DNA from: Fictibacillus macauensis ZFHKF-1
GTDB lineage: Bacteria; Bacillota; Bacilli; Bacillales; Fictibacillaceae
Direction of reading: 5' to 3'
Assembly: GCF_000269865.1 (NCBI RefSeq)
Contig: NZ_AKKV01000007.1
Span: forward strand, 1-64,000
DNA length: 64,000 nucleotides
Positions within the stretch are counted from its first letter, which is position 1. Every line of letters starts with the position of its first letter. The position numbers were made by a program, and so were the translations under genes. The notes beneath the pieces are model-generated. The model worked only from the letters and a program-made list of their open reading frames with translations. It was not told the origin of the DNA and ran no database searches. Shown in pieces: positions 11,761 through 30,307 of the stretch.

Positions 11761-11884
11761 GCGTTCCTATTTACGACTTAGGACACACTATTTCCTCTGT
11801 TTTGTGGCACATGAGCGAGCTTAGCGCTTGATTTGCTCTCTTTTCCTCTTTTGCGTATGCTCTGAAGGCTGATTTGTCTTGCTT

Positions 11885-11968
11885 GCGCGCGAATCGAGTG
11901 CTCCTGCGCGCGAACGGACATGCTCTGCGCGCGAATCGAGTGCTTCTGCGCGCGAATCAGGCGCTTCT
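11885..11968. repeat. 21-bp tandem array (4 units) in element 1
   Basis: Units begin at 11885, 11906, 11927 and 11948. Each starts with GCGCGCGAA and ends with CT; the middle 10 bases vary, TCGAGTGCTC being one form. A fifth, degenerate unit starts GCGAGACTT at 11969. Confidence 0.92.
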
Positions 11969-12020
11969 GCGAGACTTGAACACAAGACAATCTACTATAA
12001 AATAACAAGCAACATCAAAG

Positions 12021-12060
12021 AATGGCTTCAGCATCAAAAACCGATGATGAAGCCATTTTT
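12021..12060 (+). terminator. Terminator-like hairpin of element 1
   Basis: ATGGCTTCA-G-CATC pairs with GATG-A-TGAAGCCAT, then T5. It is shared nearly base for base with element 2. It would end yqkF transcription and, read in reverse, weakly that of the thiolase. Confidence 0.75.
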
Positions 12061-12068
12061 AGGAGTGA

Positions 12069-12097
12069 GAGCTGTGAATGTCACAGCCTCTTTTTTT
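12069..12097 (+). terminator. Second hairpin with T7 tract
   Basis: AGCTGTGA-ATG-TCACAGC is followed by CTCTTTTTTT, directly before the stop codon of the facing thiolase gene. A weaker GGCTG/CAGCC version lies at the same place in element 2. Confidence 0.65.
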
Positions 12098-22042: not shown

Positions 22043-23290
22043 TTAGGCTTTATGCCCACCTAGCAACGTACTGCGATGGCGCGCCGTTCCTGCTGATGTA
22101 TACGACACCGCACGCAACAAAGCCGTCGAACCATGCTTACGCCGAATTTCATCCATCACATAACCAAGTGTGCGTTTTTTAGGTTCATCAAGCGCAAATA
22201 AATTCAATTGCATTTCCGTATCATCACATACGTTCGACAATGTAATGGAAAGTTTTCGCACCGTTTGTCCGCTATAAAATTCCTGCATTAACTGCAAGCA
22301 TACGTCATACAACTCCATCGTAATATTCGTCGGTTCTTCTATGCTTTTGGAGCGATGAAAGCCACCACCGCCTTCATGTCTGCTATAGCCCATCCCTAAA
22401 CTAATCGTCCGGCCCGCTTTTTTAGCTGTTCGTGCGCGCCGTGCGACCTCTTCACACATTTCTAACATGACATGCTGAATCTCTTCTTTCTTCGTATAAT
22501 CACGCAATAAGATTTGGCTTTTACCATAGCTAATTTGTCCGTTCGTTGCTGGTCGTTCTTCTAGCTGCGTTTCATCAATTCCCCAGGCGTGATGATACAG
22601 TTGATTGCCCATCACACCAAATTTTTTCTCCAATAACGCGAGGGGATAGTGCGCCAAGTCTCCTACCTTCGTTATGCCCATACGGTGAAGTGTCTGCTCT
22701 AGCCGCGGCCCAATGCCCCACATTTTACGCAAAGGCGAAAGTGGCCACAGTTTCCGTGGAACATCTTCATACGTCCACTGAGCAATGCCGGTTTTTTTTG
22801 CTTCTAAATCTAGGCAAAGCTTTGCTAGCAACATATTGGGACCAATTCCAATGGCACTCGGAAGACCAAATTCTTCTTGAATGGACGTTGTAATCGCAGT
22901 GGCTAACGCGCGGCCATCTCCCCATAATCGCTCCGTACCATCTGCTTTTATAAAGCTCTCATCAACGCTATACGTATGAATCGCCTCTTGCGGCACGAAA
23001 CGATTTAACAGCCCCGTAATTTCTATCGATCGTTGCAGAAAAAAAGCCATTTGTGCATTAACAACATGAATGCGTTCATCTTTTGGAATTTCAAATAGTC
23101 GACTGCCCGTTTTAATGCCATAATCTTTTTTTAAGGCAGGTGATGCAGCTAACACGACACTTCCTTGTCGCTCGGTATTGCCAACGACTGCTAAATGACA
23201 GGTGAGAGGATCTAAGCCAAGACGAAGGGCGGCACAACTTGCATAAAAACTCTTCATATCAATGCATAAAATCGTTTGCTTCGTTAACAT
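22043..23290 (-). CDS. polY2: Y-family translesion DNA polymerase (YqjW/UvrX type)
   Basis: Error-prone polymerase of 415 residues from ATG at 23290 (GGAGGTGAG before it; the frame to 23311 would include that site). Catalytic motifs are ILCIDMKSFYAS near the N-terminus and YSVDESFIKADG (metal-binding DE). Helix-hairpin-helix residues MWGIGPRLEQTLHRMGITKVGDL and a little-finger domain follow. LexA-box-like sites lie upstream, as for B. subtilis yqjW, which is SOS-induced. No beta-clamp or YolD-like partner gene adjoins it. Confidence 0.92.
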   Translation of the reverse strand: MLTKQTILCIDMKSFYASCAALRLGLDPLTCHLAVVGNTERQGSVVLAASPALKKDYGIKTGSRLFEIPKDERIHVVNAQMAFFLQRSIEITGLLNRFVPQEAIHTYSVDESFIKADGTERLWGDGRALATAITTSIQEEFGLPSAIGIGPNMLLAKLCLDLEAKKTGIAQWTYEDVPRKLWPLSPLRKMWGIGPRLEQTLHRMGITKVGDLAHYPLALLEKKFGVMGNQLYHHAWGIDETQLEERPATNGQISYGKSQILLRDYTKKEEIQHVMLEMCEEVARRARTAKKAGRTISLGMGYSRHEGGGGFHRSKSIEEPTNITMELYDVCLQLMQEFYSGQTVRKLSITLSNVCDDTEMQLNLFALDEPKKRTLGYVMDEIRRKHGSTALLRAVSYTSAGTARHRSTLLGGHKA

Positions 23291-23304
23291 GTAACACTCA
23301 CCTC

Positions 23305-23318
23305 CAAACATTTGTTCT
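23305..23318. promoter_or_regulatory. LexA-box-like site 1 (polY2)
   Basis: CAAACATTTGTTCT matches CGAACRNRYGTTYC at 11 of 14 positions. It lies just upstream of the polY2 ribosome binding site. Confidence 0.35.
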
Positions 23319-26719: not shown

Positions 26720-27445
26720 ATGACTTACATATACGGACATCGCGGTGCTAGCGCACACTGTCCCGAAAATACGATGGCTGCCTTTGTCAAAGCACTGGCA
26801 TGTGGCGCCGATGGCATTGAGCTTGATGTTCATTTAACAAAAGATCGCATTCCCGTTATTATTCATGATGATCAAGTAAAGCGCACGACAAACGGCAAAG
26901 GCTGGGTAAAGCATCTCTCCTTGGATGAAATCAAGCGCCTTGATGCCGGAAGCTGGTTCAGCCCAGCTTTTAAGACCGAGAAAATTCTTACCTTACAAGA
27001 ATTTCTAGAGTGGATTGCGCCTACTTCTCTTTTCTTAAACATCGAATTAAAAAACAATACTGTTGAGTATGAAGGAATGGAAGCGCTCGTCTATAATCTC
27101 GTGCAAACGTATGAAATGAAGGAGCGAACCATATATTCTTCCTTCAATCACTACAGTCTCGTGCAAATGAAGAAAATCGATGAAAGTGTGGAAACAGCGA
27201 CGCTTTATTCTTCGGCACTGTATAAGCCATGGGCTTATGCAAAAAGTCTTGGTGCAAGCAGCGTTCACCCACACTACAAAACTTTAAAACCAGCTATCAT
27301 TCAACAATTAAAAGCACATGGAATCGGCATTCGACCTTATACCGTTAATCAAGAAAAATGGCTAACTTATTTTTTTCAACAGAACATTGATGCCATTATT
27401 ACCGATTCCCCTGATGTAGCACATGCCATTCGACACTCATGTTAA
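26720..27445 (+). CDS. Glycerophosphodiester phosphodiesterase
   Basis: GDPD of 241 residues with the usual N-terminal motif YGHRGASAHCPENT (catalytic His), metal-binding ELDVHLTKD and the second His in IIHDD. It is cytoplasmic (no signal peptide), like the UgpQ/YqiK group. It hydrolyses glycerophosphodiesters to glycerol 3-phosphate and an alcohol. Its 3' end abuts the larger minisatellite element. Confidence 0.93.
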   Translation: MTYIYGHRGASAHCPENTMAAFVKALACGADGIELDVHLTKDRIPVIIHDDQVKRTTNGKGWVKHLSLDEIKRLDAGSWFSPAFKTEKILTLQEFLEWIAPTSLFLNIELKNNTVEYEGMEALVYNLVQTYEMKERTIYSSFNHYSLVQMKKIDESVETATLYSSALYKPWAYAKSLGASSVHPHYKTLKPAIIQQLKAHGIGIRPYTVNQEKWLTYFFQQNIDAIITDSPDVAHAIRHSC

Positions 27446-27564
27446 CAAGAAAGGACTTGGTACACACTATTTCCTCGGTTTTGTGGCGCATTCGCGAGCT
27501 TTGCTCTTGAATTACTCTCTTTTTGATTTCTTGCACATGCTCTGAAGGCGAATTTATCTTGTTT

Positions 27565-27690
27565 GCGCGCGGTTCGAGTACCCCTGCGCGCGAACTCATC
27601 GGGTCTGCGCGCGAACTCACCGGGTCTGCGTGCGAATCGAGTACCTCTGCGCGCGAACTCACCGGGTCTGCGCGCGATTCACTCTTTTCT
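27565..27690. repeat. 21-bp tandem array (6 units)
   Basis: Units start at 27565, 27586, 27607, 27628, 27649 and 27670. All begin with GCGCGCG, GCGTGCG or a close variant. Two sequence types occur, one with GAGTACC and one with TCACCGGG in the variable part, in the order A-B-B-A-B. The last unit (ATTCACTCTTTTCT) is distinct. Confidence 0.93.
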
Positions 27691-27811
27691 CAATCATTGC
27701 ATGGCTTGCACGCAATTTTACTCGTTTTTTTGGCGCATTCGTGATCTTTGCTCTTGAATTACTCTCTTTTTGATTTCTTACACATGCTCTGAGGGCGAAT
27801 TTGTCTTGTTT

Positions 27812-27958
27812 GCGCGCGAATGGAGTGCCTCTGCGCGCGAACTCACCGGGTCTGCGCGCGAATGGAGTACCTCTGTGCGCGAACTCTCCGGGTCTGCGCG
27901 CGAATCGAGAGCCTCTGCGCGCGAATTGGAAGCTCTTGCGCACGATTCACTCTTTTCT
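27812..27958. repeat. 21-bp tandem array (7 units)
   Basis: Units start at 27812, 27833, 27854, 27875, 27896, 27917 and 27938. Types alternate A-B-A-B-A, then a variant, then the same distinct end unit as in the first array. This gives a 42-bp higher-order period. Confidence 0.93.
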
Positions 27959-28081
27959 CAATCATTGCATGGCTTGCACGCTACCACTTTCATTTGAAAA
28001 TTCTTCAAGTAAGGCAGCGTTTATGACAGGAAACTTGAACGCAACACAATCCAAAAAGAAAATAACAAGCAACATAAAAAA

Positions 28082-28120
28082 AATGGCTTCAGCATAAAAA
28101 ATGATGCTGAAGCCATTTTT
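28082..28120 (+). terminator. Terminator-like hairpin of element 2
   Basis: ATGGCTTCAGCAT pairs perfectly with ATGCTGAAGCCAT around an AAAAAATG loop, followed by T6. Same hairpin as in element 1; it sits between two convergent genes. Confidence 0.8.
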
Positions 28121-28136
28121 TATGAGTTAAGGCTGT

Positions 28137-29087
28137 TTATGTCCCAGCCGCTTCCCTCACTGTTCCGCTAGCATCCAATCGATAACAGGCAAAATCACGC
28201 GCCACTGCTACATGATTCGTCTGTGTCTTTGCTTCGGCAATTAGCAAGGCTTCATCTTGTTCAGAATAACGCGCACTTACATGTTGAAGGATGAGAAAGC
28301 GCGCTTTCGCTTCAGCGGCAACGCTACCAGCTTGTTGCGCGGAAGAATGGCCATATGCGTTTACGTGCTCCACACGCTCATGAAGAGATGTAGCTTCGTG
28401 AAGAAGTACATCTGCGTCCTGCGCTAACGCAATTGCGGCAGCACATGGTCGGGTATCGCCTAAAATCGTCACAATACGTCCTCTCGTCGCTGCTTCCACA
28501 AAGTCTTGGCTCTTCAGACACGTCCCATCTTCTAACCACACATCTTGTCCTTCTTTTAATTGACGAAACAAAGGACCCGCAGGAATGTTCAAGGCGCGTA
28601 GCTTCTCCACTTTCAGACGCCCCGGGCGATCATGCTCTTGAATTCGATATCCGTAACATGGAATGACATGATCTAATTGTCGCACTTCAACAGAAAACCC
28701 TTCATCGGTAAATAAGAGTCCCTCTTCTTGAATTTCATGCACAATCAAAGGATACGTTACATGCGTTTCACTCAGCGTAAATACCGTATCAATATACTGT
28801 TTTAACCCTATAGGACCATAGATATGAAGGGGCGCCCCTGTTCCTAAGAACGAGCGACTTCCTAAAAGTCCTGGTAAGCCAAATAAATGATCGCCATGAA
28901 GATGGGTAATCATTATTTTTGTAATTTTACCAGGCTTGATTGGTGTGTGTAACATTTGATGTTGCGTCCCCTCGCCACAATCAAATAACCATACAGAGGC
29001 GTGGTCATTTATCTTTAAAGCGACACTGGAAACGTTTCGTGCTTTAGAAGGCATTCCAGCGCCTGTTCCTAAAAATTGCAACTCCAT
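28137..29087 (-). CDS. rnz: Ribonuclease Z
   Basis: Endonuclease that trims the 3' end of tRNA precursors. 316 residues from ATG at 29087, AAGGTG upstream. Zinc motif THLHGDHLFG (H62, H64, D66, H67), ILGDTRPC and LHEAT, and the exosite-bearing insertion around 150-190 expected for the long-arm RNase Z. It follows dinB by 14 nt. Its last codons fall in the tail of repeat element 2. Confidence 0.94.
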   Translation of the reverse strand: MELQFLGTGAGMPSKARNVSSVALKINDHASVWLFDCGEGTQHQMLHTPIKPGKITKIMITHLHGDHLFGLPGLLGSRSFLGTGAPLHIYGPIGLKQYIDTVFTLSETHVTYPLIVHEIQEEGLLFTDEGFSVEVRQLDHVIPCYGYRIQEHDRPGRLKVEKLRALNIPAGPLFRQLKEGQDVWLEDGTCLKSQDFVEAATRGRIVTILGDTRPCAAAIALAQDADVLLHEATSLHERVEHVNAYGHSSAQQAGSVAAEAKARFLILQHVSARYSEQDEALLIAEAKTQTNHVAVARDFACYRLDASGTVREAAGT

Positions 29088-29101
29088 CTCTTCACACCTT
29101 T

Positions 29102-30307
29102 TCATTCATCATGCGGCTCTAAAGGAGCGGCTTCCGCTCCTTTACGAATCGATGACTGTCCAAATTTTTCTTGTAAATTTTGTACAAGTTGATTTACTTT
29201 TTCTGTTTTCTCATCCTTCTCGTAGGTGAATAAATCCATTTGCCGAAAAGCATGTTCTTTTGACAGTAATGCACTTGCTGTAATCCCAAGTAAACGCACG
29301 GGTTCGCGTGTCCAATGCTTCAAAAAAAGCGCCCACGCTTCCTGTAAAATGATTTGTTTTTCATGAAACGTATTATCTAAGGCTTTACTTCGCGTCACCG
29401 TCTTACGGTCACGATAACGAATCACAATTTGCACGTGTTGCCCGACCACGCTTTTTTCAAACATTCGTTTTTCAACAGAAGTCGCCAATGAGGAAAAAAT
29501 GTGAAACAGAGATGCTTCGTCATCTAGATCCTCGGCGAGCGTAGTAGAATTACCAATCGATTGAAATTCATCGGCGCGTTGTGGATTTACTGGCGAGTCA
29601 TCGATCCCATTGGCACGCTCCCACATTTTCACACCATTTACGCCCATGCGCTGTTTCATCGTATAACGATCTTGCTGCGCTAAGTCACCAATCGTATAAA
29701 TGTCATACTGCTTCAGCTTTTCAGCCGTAGCTTGGCCAATGCCGTGCATTTCAGCTACATGTTTTGGCCATAAAATATGGTGCACTTCCCGCTTGCGCAA
29801 AATTGTAATTCCCATGGGTTTTTTCATATCCGATGCCATTTTTGCTAAAAATTTATTCGGTGCAATGCCAATGCTACACGGTAAGCCAATTTCCTCATAT
29901 AAACGCCGTTGAAGGTCCTGTGCAATTTCAATGGGGTTAGACGCTAAATGCGTCACATCCATATAGCCTTCATCGATGGAAACAGGTTCGACCATCTCGG
30001 TATATTCACGCAACAGTTGAAACATTCTTTTTGAAAAGGTACGATATTTCGGGAAATCCGGTCGACGAATAATGAGTTCAGGACAAAGTCGTTTTGCCTG
30101 CCATAAGGGCATTGTCGTCTTTACGCCACGCTTTCGTGCTTCATAGCTACAGGTCACGATAATACCGCGTCGCTCTTGAGGATTCCCGGCAATGGCAAGG
30201 GCTTTTCCTTTCAATGAGGGATCTACCACGCTTTCCACAGAAGCATAAAAACTATTCATGTCTACATGTAAAATGAACCGACGTTTTCCTACAGATTCTT
30301 GATTCAT
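29102..30307 (-). CDS. dinB: DNA polymerase IV (Y family, DinB/YqjH)
   Basis: Translesion polymerase of 401 residues: FILHVDMNSFYASVE (metal Asp), SIDEGYMD (catalytic DE), helix-hairpin-helix EMHGIGQATAEKLKQYDIYTIGDL and a C-terminal little finger. The C-terminus includes QMDLF, a good beta-clamp-binding motif. It is distinct from the UvrX-type paralog at 22 kb. It starts an rnz-containing operon. Confidence 0.94.
   Translation of the reverse strand: MNQESVGKRRFILHVDMNSFYASVESVVDPSLKGKALAIAGNPQERRGIIVTCSYEARKRGVKTTMPLWQAKRLCPELIIRRPDFPKYRTFSKRMFQLLREYTEMVEPVSIDEGYMDVTHLASNPIEIAQDLQRRLYEEIGLPCSIGIAPNKFLAKMASDMKKPMGITILRKREVHHILWPKHVAEMHGIGQATAEKLKQYDIYTIGDLAQQDRYTMKQRMGVNGVKMWERANGIDDSPVNPQRADEFQSIGNSTTLAEDLDDEASLFHIFSSLATSVEKRMFEKSVVGQHVQIVIRYRDRKTVTRSKALDNTFHEKQIILQEAWALFLKHWTREPVRLLGITASALLSKEHAFRQMDLFTYEKDEKTEKVNQLVQNLQEKFGQSSIRKGAEAAPLEPHDE

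Follow-up and report, generated by a model that had tools for sequence, protein, structure and literature searches.

A dispersed element of Fictibacillus macauensis with alternating 21-bp arrays, probably derived from an IS1182-family insertion sequence and spread by stem-loop replacement

Introduction

BIME/REP repeats of enterobacteria are mosaic intergenic repeats with alternating unit types that lie at operon ends; the palindromic REP units in them are associated with RAYT transposases. In Streptococcus pneumoniae, BOX is a composite interspersed repeat with fixed ends and variable tandem inner units that is found in few species only, and SPRITE is a terminator-resembling repeat, an 18-bp duplex with a T-rich tract, enriched at the 3' ends of genes (PMC3049150). 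BOX, RUP, SPRITE and insertion sequences of pneumococcus are all enriched between convergent genes, which has been read as a mark of parasitic elements (PMC3049150). IS1272, a staphylococcal member of the IS1182 family with 16-bp terminal repeats, replaces stem-loops of 21-85 bp and leaves no target duplication (PMC5678879). In that account, one target lies downstream of two genes, IS1272L has a 25-bp tandem duplication at its left side, and replacement is reported from comparisons at about thirty sites (3 new and 7 older sets, and 19 from databases).

Here we describe a repeat in 64,000 nucleotides of the genome of F. macauensis ZFHKF-1 (contig NZ_AKKV01000007.1, positions 1 to 64,000; hereafter the window) that has features of each of these systems. 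Like IS1272, it has terminal inverted repeats of ~16 bp of the IS1182-family type (the match shown is to other IS1182 members), apparently lies in place of stem-loops downstream of genes and has no consistent target duplication (PMC5678879); unlike IS1272, it has no transposase gene, carries a leader and 21-bp arrays inside, and is present as ~69 diverged copies of about 0.2 to 1.2 kb in one genome. Compared by described features, it resembles BOX in its composite build, its enrichment at convergent genes and its restriction to few species (PMC3049150), and differs from BOX in its GC-rich 21-bp unit with A-B alternation, its IS1182-type ends and its terminator-like right-end hairpin. It shares with SPRITE a likeness to terminators and a place at gene 3' ends, while the passages of PMC3049150 on SPRITE describe no arrays. 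Unlike the units of BIME/REP, those of the element are direct 21-bp repeats inside IS1182-type ends. The parts are known (MITE, BOX-like composite, IS1182 ends); the combination is unusual. We argue that the feature in the window is very probably a copy of a non-autonomous, MITE-like element from an IS1182-family (IS1272-like) insertion sequence, probably spread by stem-loop replacement.

Results

The copy examined here sits within its contig, not at a contig end, between two convergent genes (Table 1). We take the right-hand gene to be rnz, a name that follows the initial annotation, and the left-hand gene presumably belongs, judging from its sequence, to the glycerophosphodiester phosphodiesterase family. 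The initial annotation had described a leader-array-spacer module that occurs twice, and this was borne out: the modules span 27470-27713 and 27717-27981 with a spacer containing CAATCATTGCATGGCTTGC, are 90% identical over 146 nt at a spacing of 247 bp, have spacers 98% identical over 45 nt, and are reported by TRF with a period of 247 and 1.8 copies. The element tail does extend into rnz, as had been noted, in that the last four codons and the stop (28137-28151) lie in the right terminal repeat. The distinct last unit said to be shared by both arrays is indeed present in each (TGCGCRCGATTCACTCTTTTC), but it is the start of the spacer, which reads TTCACTCTTTTC..ATCATTG.ATGGCTTGCACGC. A loose pattern finds a spacer-like motif in 41 of 57 array-bearing clusters.

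Table 1. Layout of the window copy, its neighbouring genes and a second copy (window coordinates)
Feature	Position	Strand	Basis or remark
Left terminal inverted repeat and A-tract (AAAGGACTTGGTACACA)	27450..27466	+	Family consensus of left ends
Leader 1	27467..27563	+	Found again 247 bp further on and in further copies
Array 1, five 21-bp units, A-B-B-A-B	27564..27668	+	
End unit and spacer 1 (TGCGCGCGATTCACTCTTTTCTCAATCATTGCATGGCTTGCACGC)	27669..27713	+	Repeat search
Leader 2	27714..27810	+	90% over 146 nt repeat
Array 2 (42-bp period), six units: A-B-A-B-A plus one deviating, A-like unit	27811..27936	+	
End unit and spacer 2	27937..27981	+	Repeat search
Terminator-like hairpin, A run on one side, T run on the other	28071..28128	+	With right repeat, matches IS1182-family right end
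Right terminal inverted repeat (TTATGTCCCAGCCGCT)	28137..28152	+	
rnz (ribonuclease Z-like; presumed name)	28137..29105	-	ORF list
Glycerophosphodiester phosphodiesterase-like gene ("glpQ"; presumed), convergent partner of rnz	26720..27445	+	
Second window copy: one module, four units, tail hairpin, both ends	11773..12091	+	

The window copy has no transposase gene of its own, its ORFs of at least 80 aa being repeat-derived. Because the 21-bp period keeps frames open, ORFs made mostly of repeat, with ARR, LRAN and SRA motifs, occur at 27399-27662 (-), 27659-27943 (-) and 27801-28097 (+), and annotation programs may report such ORFs as hypothetical proteins. Nearby, two genes ~6 kb apart (22043-23311 and 29102-30307, both on the minus strand) encode what we take, judging from their sequences, to be Y-family DNA polymerase-like proteins.

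The main point, which the initial annotation missed, is that this feature belongs to an element dispersed through the genome, bounded by terminal inverted repeats and related to insertion sequences of the IS1182 family. A covariance model of the tail gave at least 122 matches in the F. macauensis genome, with 123 of 3562 candidates scored and both hairpin strands matched; by hand count these represent ~69 distinct places, one of which (C22:63259, E 3.6e-6) scores barely better than the best congener match (1.2e-5). Copies truncated where a contig stops may be without a tail and go uncounted. The same model found at most two matches in each of 33 other genomes of the family, with a best E of 1.2e-5. 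Searching the genome with the element DNA returned at least 111 matching pieces (40 of 114 candidates scored), mostly 67-88% identical to the window copy; the copies have diverged and give no sign of recent movement. The copy list was completed with a double-unit pattern, the tail model and further searches (for one of these, 100 of 117 matches listed), and 69 stretches of the genome were retrieved for comparison. The double-unit pattern has 372 matches in this genome and none in the 33 others; across 84,980 species genomes it gave seven single exact matches in scattered taxa, in a search from which the records of F. macauensis itself were possibly left out. A full-element DNA search gave no match in six congeners. 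Searches of open-licence PubMed Central text with end and unit sequences and by topic listed no paper that appeared to describe the element. The passages of PMC4666352 and PMC10969869 consulted do not describe it, and an S. aureus paper contains TTATGTCCCAGCC once (PMC10746193).

Aligning the ends of the copies in register gave a left consensus of an A-run followed by GGACTTGGGACACA or GAGACTGGGACACA (46 ends) and a right consensus of TTTATGTCCCAGCCTC followed by a T-run (47 ends), with one chance match among the listed ends on the left (window 21680) and one on the right (L043 minus). Together they make up terminal inverted repeats (AGAGRCTGGGACAYA-like), imperfect in many copies, with the A and T runs flanking them. 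Across the 34 elements with both ends, the A fraction is 0.67 as compared to 0.29 in the background, the T fraction 0.62 as compared to 0.30, and the local end-to-end score 6.2 as compared to 4.1 outside. The end sequence is widespread: AGAGRCTGGGACATAA, with one mismatch allowed, is present in 175 of the 299 order genomes searched, with a maximum of 109 matches in one genome, many of these 175 having one or two matches, near control level; the reversed control was never found more than once per strand, in ~26 genomes.

Transposase genes at loci with the end pattern belong to the IS1182 family by both NF033551 and PF13751 (at L152, NF033551 gives E 4.6e-121), and a protein search found relatives of this transposase in 42 of 150 genomes of the order. 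Both ends (AGAGGCTGGGACAAAA-like on the left, TTATGTCCCAGCCTCT-like on the right) bound 9 of 35 transposase loci at a distance of 1.8-2.0 kb, and a hairpin lies immediately inward of the right end. Other loci have one end only, often because the contig stops, and 14 of the 35, mostly with transposases ~40-45% identical, have no end of this kind, which confines the end type to a part of the IS1182 family. The IS1182 transposase genes annotated in plasmids of Kurthia and Cytobacillus are flanked by these repeats exactly. At the Terribacillus locus L227, the two terminal repeats carry matching changes (AGAGAGCGGGACAAAA / TTATGTCCCGCTCTCT), so that end pairing is kept while the sequence differs.

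A subterminal match to the presumed parent insertion sequence was found at the right end, which consists of the hairpin, a short linker and the terminal repeat. The tail model, for which 45 of the 47 right ends were aligned, L034 and L043 minus being left out, matches right ends of IS1182-family elements at E-values down to 6.1e-12; annotated IS1182 right ends in Terribacillus, Cytobacillus and Kurthia plasmid records (9198 bases) score 5.9e-9, 2.9e-7 and 3.3e-6, and the best value at the six congener rnz loci is 0.93. Part of this score is generic terminator composition, since the model also matches two IS1182 loci that lack ends of this kind (L179 and L184, 0.0035), the opposite strand of the hairpin (e.g. 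5.6e-5) and ten other genomes of the family (1.2e-5 to 8.6e-4). From the ends and the tail together, we infer descent from an IS1182-type insertion sequence. In a small sample of 29 loci from eight other genomes, all rich in the end motif, 16 loci (14 distinct sequences) have a terminal-repeat pair; TRF at a score of 50 found no tandem array in any of these 16 and recovered the window copy as positive control.

In the draft genome of F. macauensis, a PF13751 search (E 1e-3) and a protein search for the IS1182 transposase (1e-20) both returned no match, and no autonomous partner for the element was found there. The copies may therefore be immobile now, and the family may be a relic of an element that was possibly active in the past.

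Many short intergenic elements with unrelated interiors are bounded by AGAGGCTGGGACAWAA across the order (e.g. L139-L159 and L198-L226), and in many cases a hairpin adjoins the end or the interior is of the CGCTTTCCGCGGGC type. These apparently form a large group of IS1182-related repeats.

We compared two occupied sites with the orthologous sites of six congeners. Between rnz and glpQ, all six congeners keep the convergent pair and have a short hairpin between the genes (-15.8 to -19.9 kcal/mol). At the second site, between genes that we take to be ydiF and tsaD, the ydiF stop is followed in all six by a hairpin of -16.3 to -19.4 kcal/mol, e.g. ACAACGGTG..CACCGTTGT, and then by a T-rich tract; in F. 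macauensis this hairpin is absent, the element starts ~8 bases past the ydiF stop, and its left terminal repeat is followed at once by a T-tract. Stem-loop replacement fits both sites in six of six congeners each, and because these congeners are distant (rnz ~55% identical) it is read from orthologous sites and not from near-identical strains. Short direct repeats flanking the element were in slight excess in a narrow test (0.56 vs 0.09 with shuffled partners; none of 200 shuffles reached it), and a wider test showed no excess (3.71 vs 3.62 ± 0.32). The A-run and T-run at the element ends look like the remains of a terminator, although they could also be the element's own. Replacement is the probable mode of insertion, one that would fit the published inverted-repeat-replacing transposition of IS1272.

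The tsaD-ydiF region of F. macauensis is AT-rich at L131:1680-1990 and contains several TGTGGATA or TATCCACA boxes, seen too in the six congeners (L231-L236). This looks like a DnaA-box cluster.

The element tail points to the 3' end of a gene. There are 67 element clusters, 11 of them without a called flank on one side; at the 56 loci with both flanks called, 32 elements lie between convergent genes, 20 have only the tail-side gene facing them, 2 only the leader-side gene and 2 neither, all approximate counts because the ORF calls are mechanical and some ORFs are short or repeat-derived (e.g. L109, L118, L135 and L136). As background, 3 of 57 gene pairs in the window are convergent, a small set mostly on one strand. 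The bias towards the tail side (20 vs 2, p 1.2e-4) suggests either that the tail hairpin may serve the neighbouring gene as a terminator or that selection acts against the other orientations; we think that the tail is probably used in the former way. Convergent placement as such is no proof of function, since the same enrichment is seen in pneumococcal elements read as parasitic. At one locus (L024), two copies in opposite orientation lie ~3 kb apart (C42:63401-64057 and 66842-67579), each at a convergent pair.

Each unit has a nearly constant 10-nt core and a variable stretch of 11 nt, and units fall into two classes, A (..GAGGGCTCC or ..GAGTACCTC) and B (..GACCTGGTC or ..CACCGGGTC). The initial annotation had reported A-B-A-B-A alternation, with a period of 42 bp, for both arrays of the window copy; this is true of array 2 (TRF 2.7 copies, 90% matches) and fails for array 1 because of its order, A-B-B-A-B. 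It had also named random unit order across more copies as a refutation, and the order proved not to be random. Among 81 arrays with 533 units, 62 oriented arrays had at least five units; measured at unit positions 10-21, similarity at lags 1-4 was 0.43, 0.69, 0.45 and 0.63, and the excess of lag 2 over lag 1 (0.26) exceeded all 1000 within-array shuffles (0.003 ± 0.018, maximum 0.07). This excess arises because there are two unit classes. When units were classed by a simple rule, strict alternation from each unit to the next was seen in 6 of the 62 arrays, and 16 consist of A units throughout, with no alternation.

Several comparisons bear on the ordered growth that had been proposed for these arrays. 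Similarity between units of the same class is 0.72 within an array (n=847) and drops to 0.59 between loci (n=11429), and identical pairs make up 33 of 360 at lag 2 as compared to 12 of 430 at lag 1. Six multi-module elements were compared: in three, spacer-leader segments of the same element are 96-98% identical, as against a mean of 0.60 and a maximum of 0.82 for segments of different elements (n=204), and in the other three the figure is only 48-60%, at least partly because segmentation paired unlike stretches. Ordered growth thus keeps its footing in within-array likeness, lag-2 identity and near-identical duplicated modules, while slippage is not separable from unequal exchange. These sequence data support local growth by dimers and module duplication, which would have proceeded via either process. 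One leader type itself ends in a B-unit-like sequence (ACCTGGTC), suggesting that growth may have started from a B-A dimer. Unit number per element ranges from none or one up to 15, figures that need caution because repeats are unresolved in the draft assembly and contigs C7, C19, C32, C34 and C43 end in copies.

The regularity of the arrays and their placement raise the question of selection by the host. It is possible, but in our judgement unlikely, that the element is a mobile terminator co-opted by the host, each insertion exchanging the old terminator for that of the element, and that selection keeps the phased A/B array behind it in alternation because it separates colliding transcription units, as a barrier or as an array of binding sites. 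We give just as little credence to a host-selected intergenic element of the BIME/REP kind, in which phased 21-bp units (two helical turns) at convergent gene ends bind a DNA-associated protein or gyrase and selection keeps the A/B alternation. Such selection would accord with the regular spacing (a step of exactly 21 bp in 723 of 738 cases, both strands counted), the convergent-gene enrichment, an alternation far past that of shuffles and the quasi-palindromic centre of each unit class. It accords poorly with terminal repeats and a right end that match an insertion sequence, with the persistence of elements that have one or no clear unit (L015, L036 and L044), with the weak or missing covariation of palindrome pairs within class A or B, and with the element's absence from the tested congeners.

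A structured RNA read off the array strand, regulatory or processed, with the units as repeated hairpins, is very unlikely. The plus strand of the window copy does fold better than its shuffles (z -5.8; minus strand, z -2.5; 20 shuffles for each strand), but the self-complementarity of GCGCGC alone favours strong folds, and Rfam 15 at curated thresholds has no match in the window. Only 2 of 15 predicted pairs of the tail show a change kept on both sides, there is little covariation of units within a class, and the leader-side gene does not face the array in 23 of the 60 loci where that gene is called. Hairpins formed by each unit were rejected as well: over 286 distinct units, pairing appears at positions 15-19, 15-18 and 14-20, and this signal is mostly the A/B contrast, small or absent within classes.

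Plain satellite expansion at ordinary terminators, with the end motif a common terminator sequence and no transposition, could explain why that motif resembles the stem and the A and T runs of a terminator and why no transposase was found in the genome. We consider it highly improbable: two ends, a leader and a tail are shared by dozens of unrelated loci, which requires copying; the end motif bounds transposase genes elsewhere; and the hairpins at the orthologous sites are unrelated. An array of the guide-RNA type, be it CRISPR-like or TIGR-like, in which repeats would be constant and spacers would carry information, has next to no chance of being right and was set aside, for despite the near-constant core, variable 11 nt and regular spacing, the variable parts are two recurring classes and not diverse spacers, the arrays are scattered over dozens of loci, and no nuclease was noticed by eye among the listed ORFs.

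Discussion

The reading we prefer, a MITE-like derivative of an IS1182-family insertion sequence, implies a sequence of events that can be set out as a proposal. In inverted-repeat-replacing transposition, a target stem-loop would be removed and the element would take its place, after which the hairpin at its right end would terminate the adjacent gene. Inside the element, local multiplication of the 21-bp unit would have built the arrays, with the 42-bp A-B dimer as the main step of growth in one lineage, and leader-array-spacer modules would at times have been duplicated whole, in place.

If this is true, one genome holds dozens of natural insertions that replaced terminators and did not interrupt DNA, and inverted-repeat-replacing transposition would be open to study on a larger set of sites than that of IS1272. 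The arrays form a natural series, from about one to fifteen units and with or without alternation, for the growth of tandem repeats in bacteria. The kinship of the Bacillales end sequence, intergenic repeats and IS1182 would aid the annotation of many repeats that are so far unexplained.
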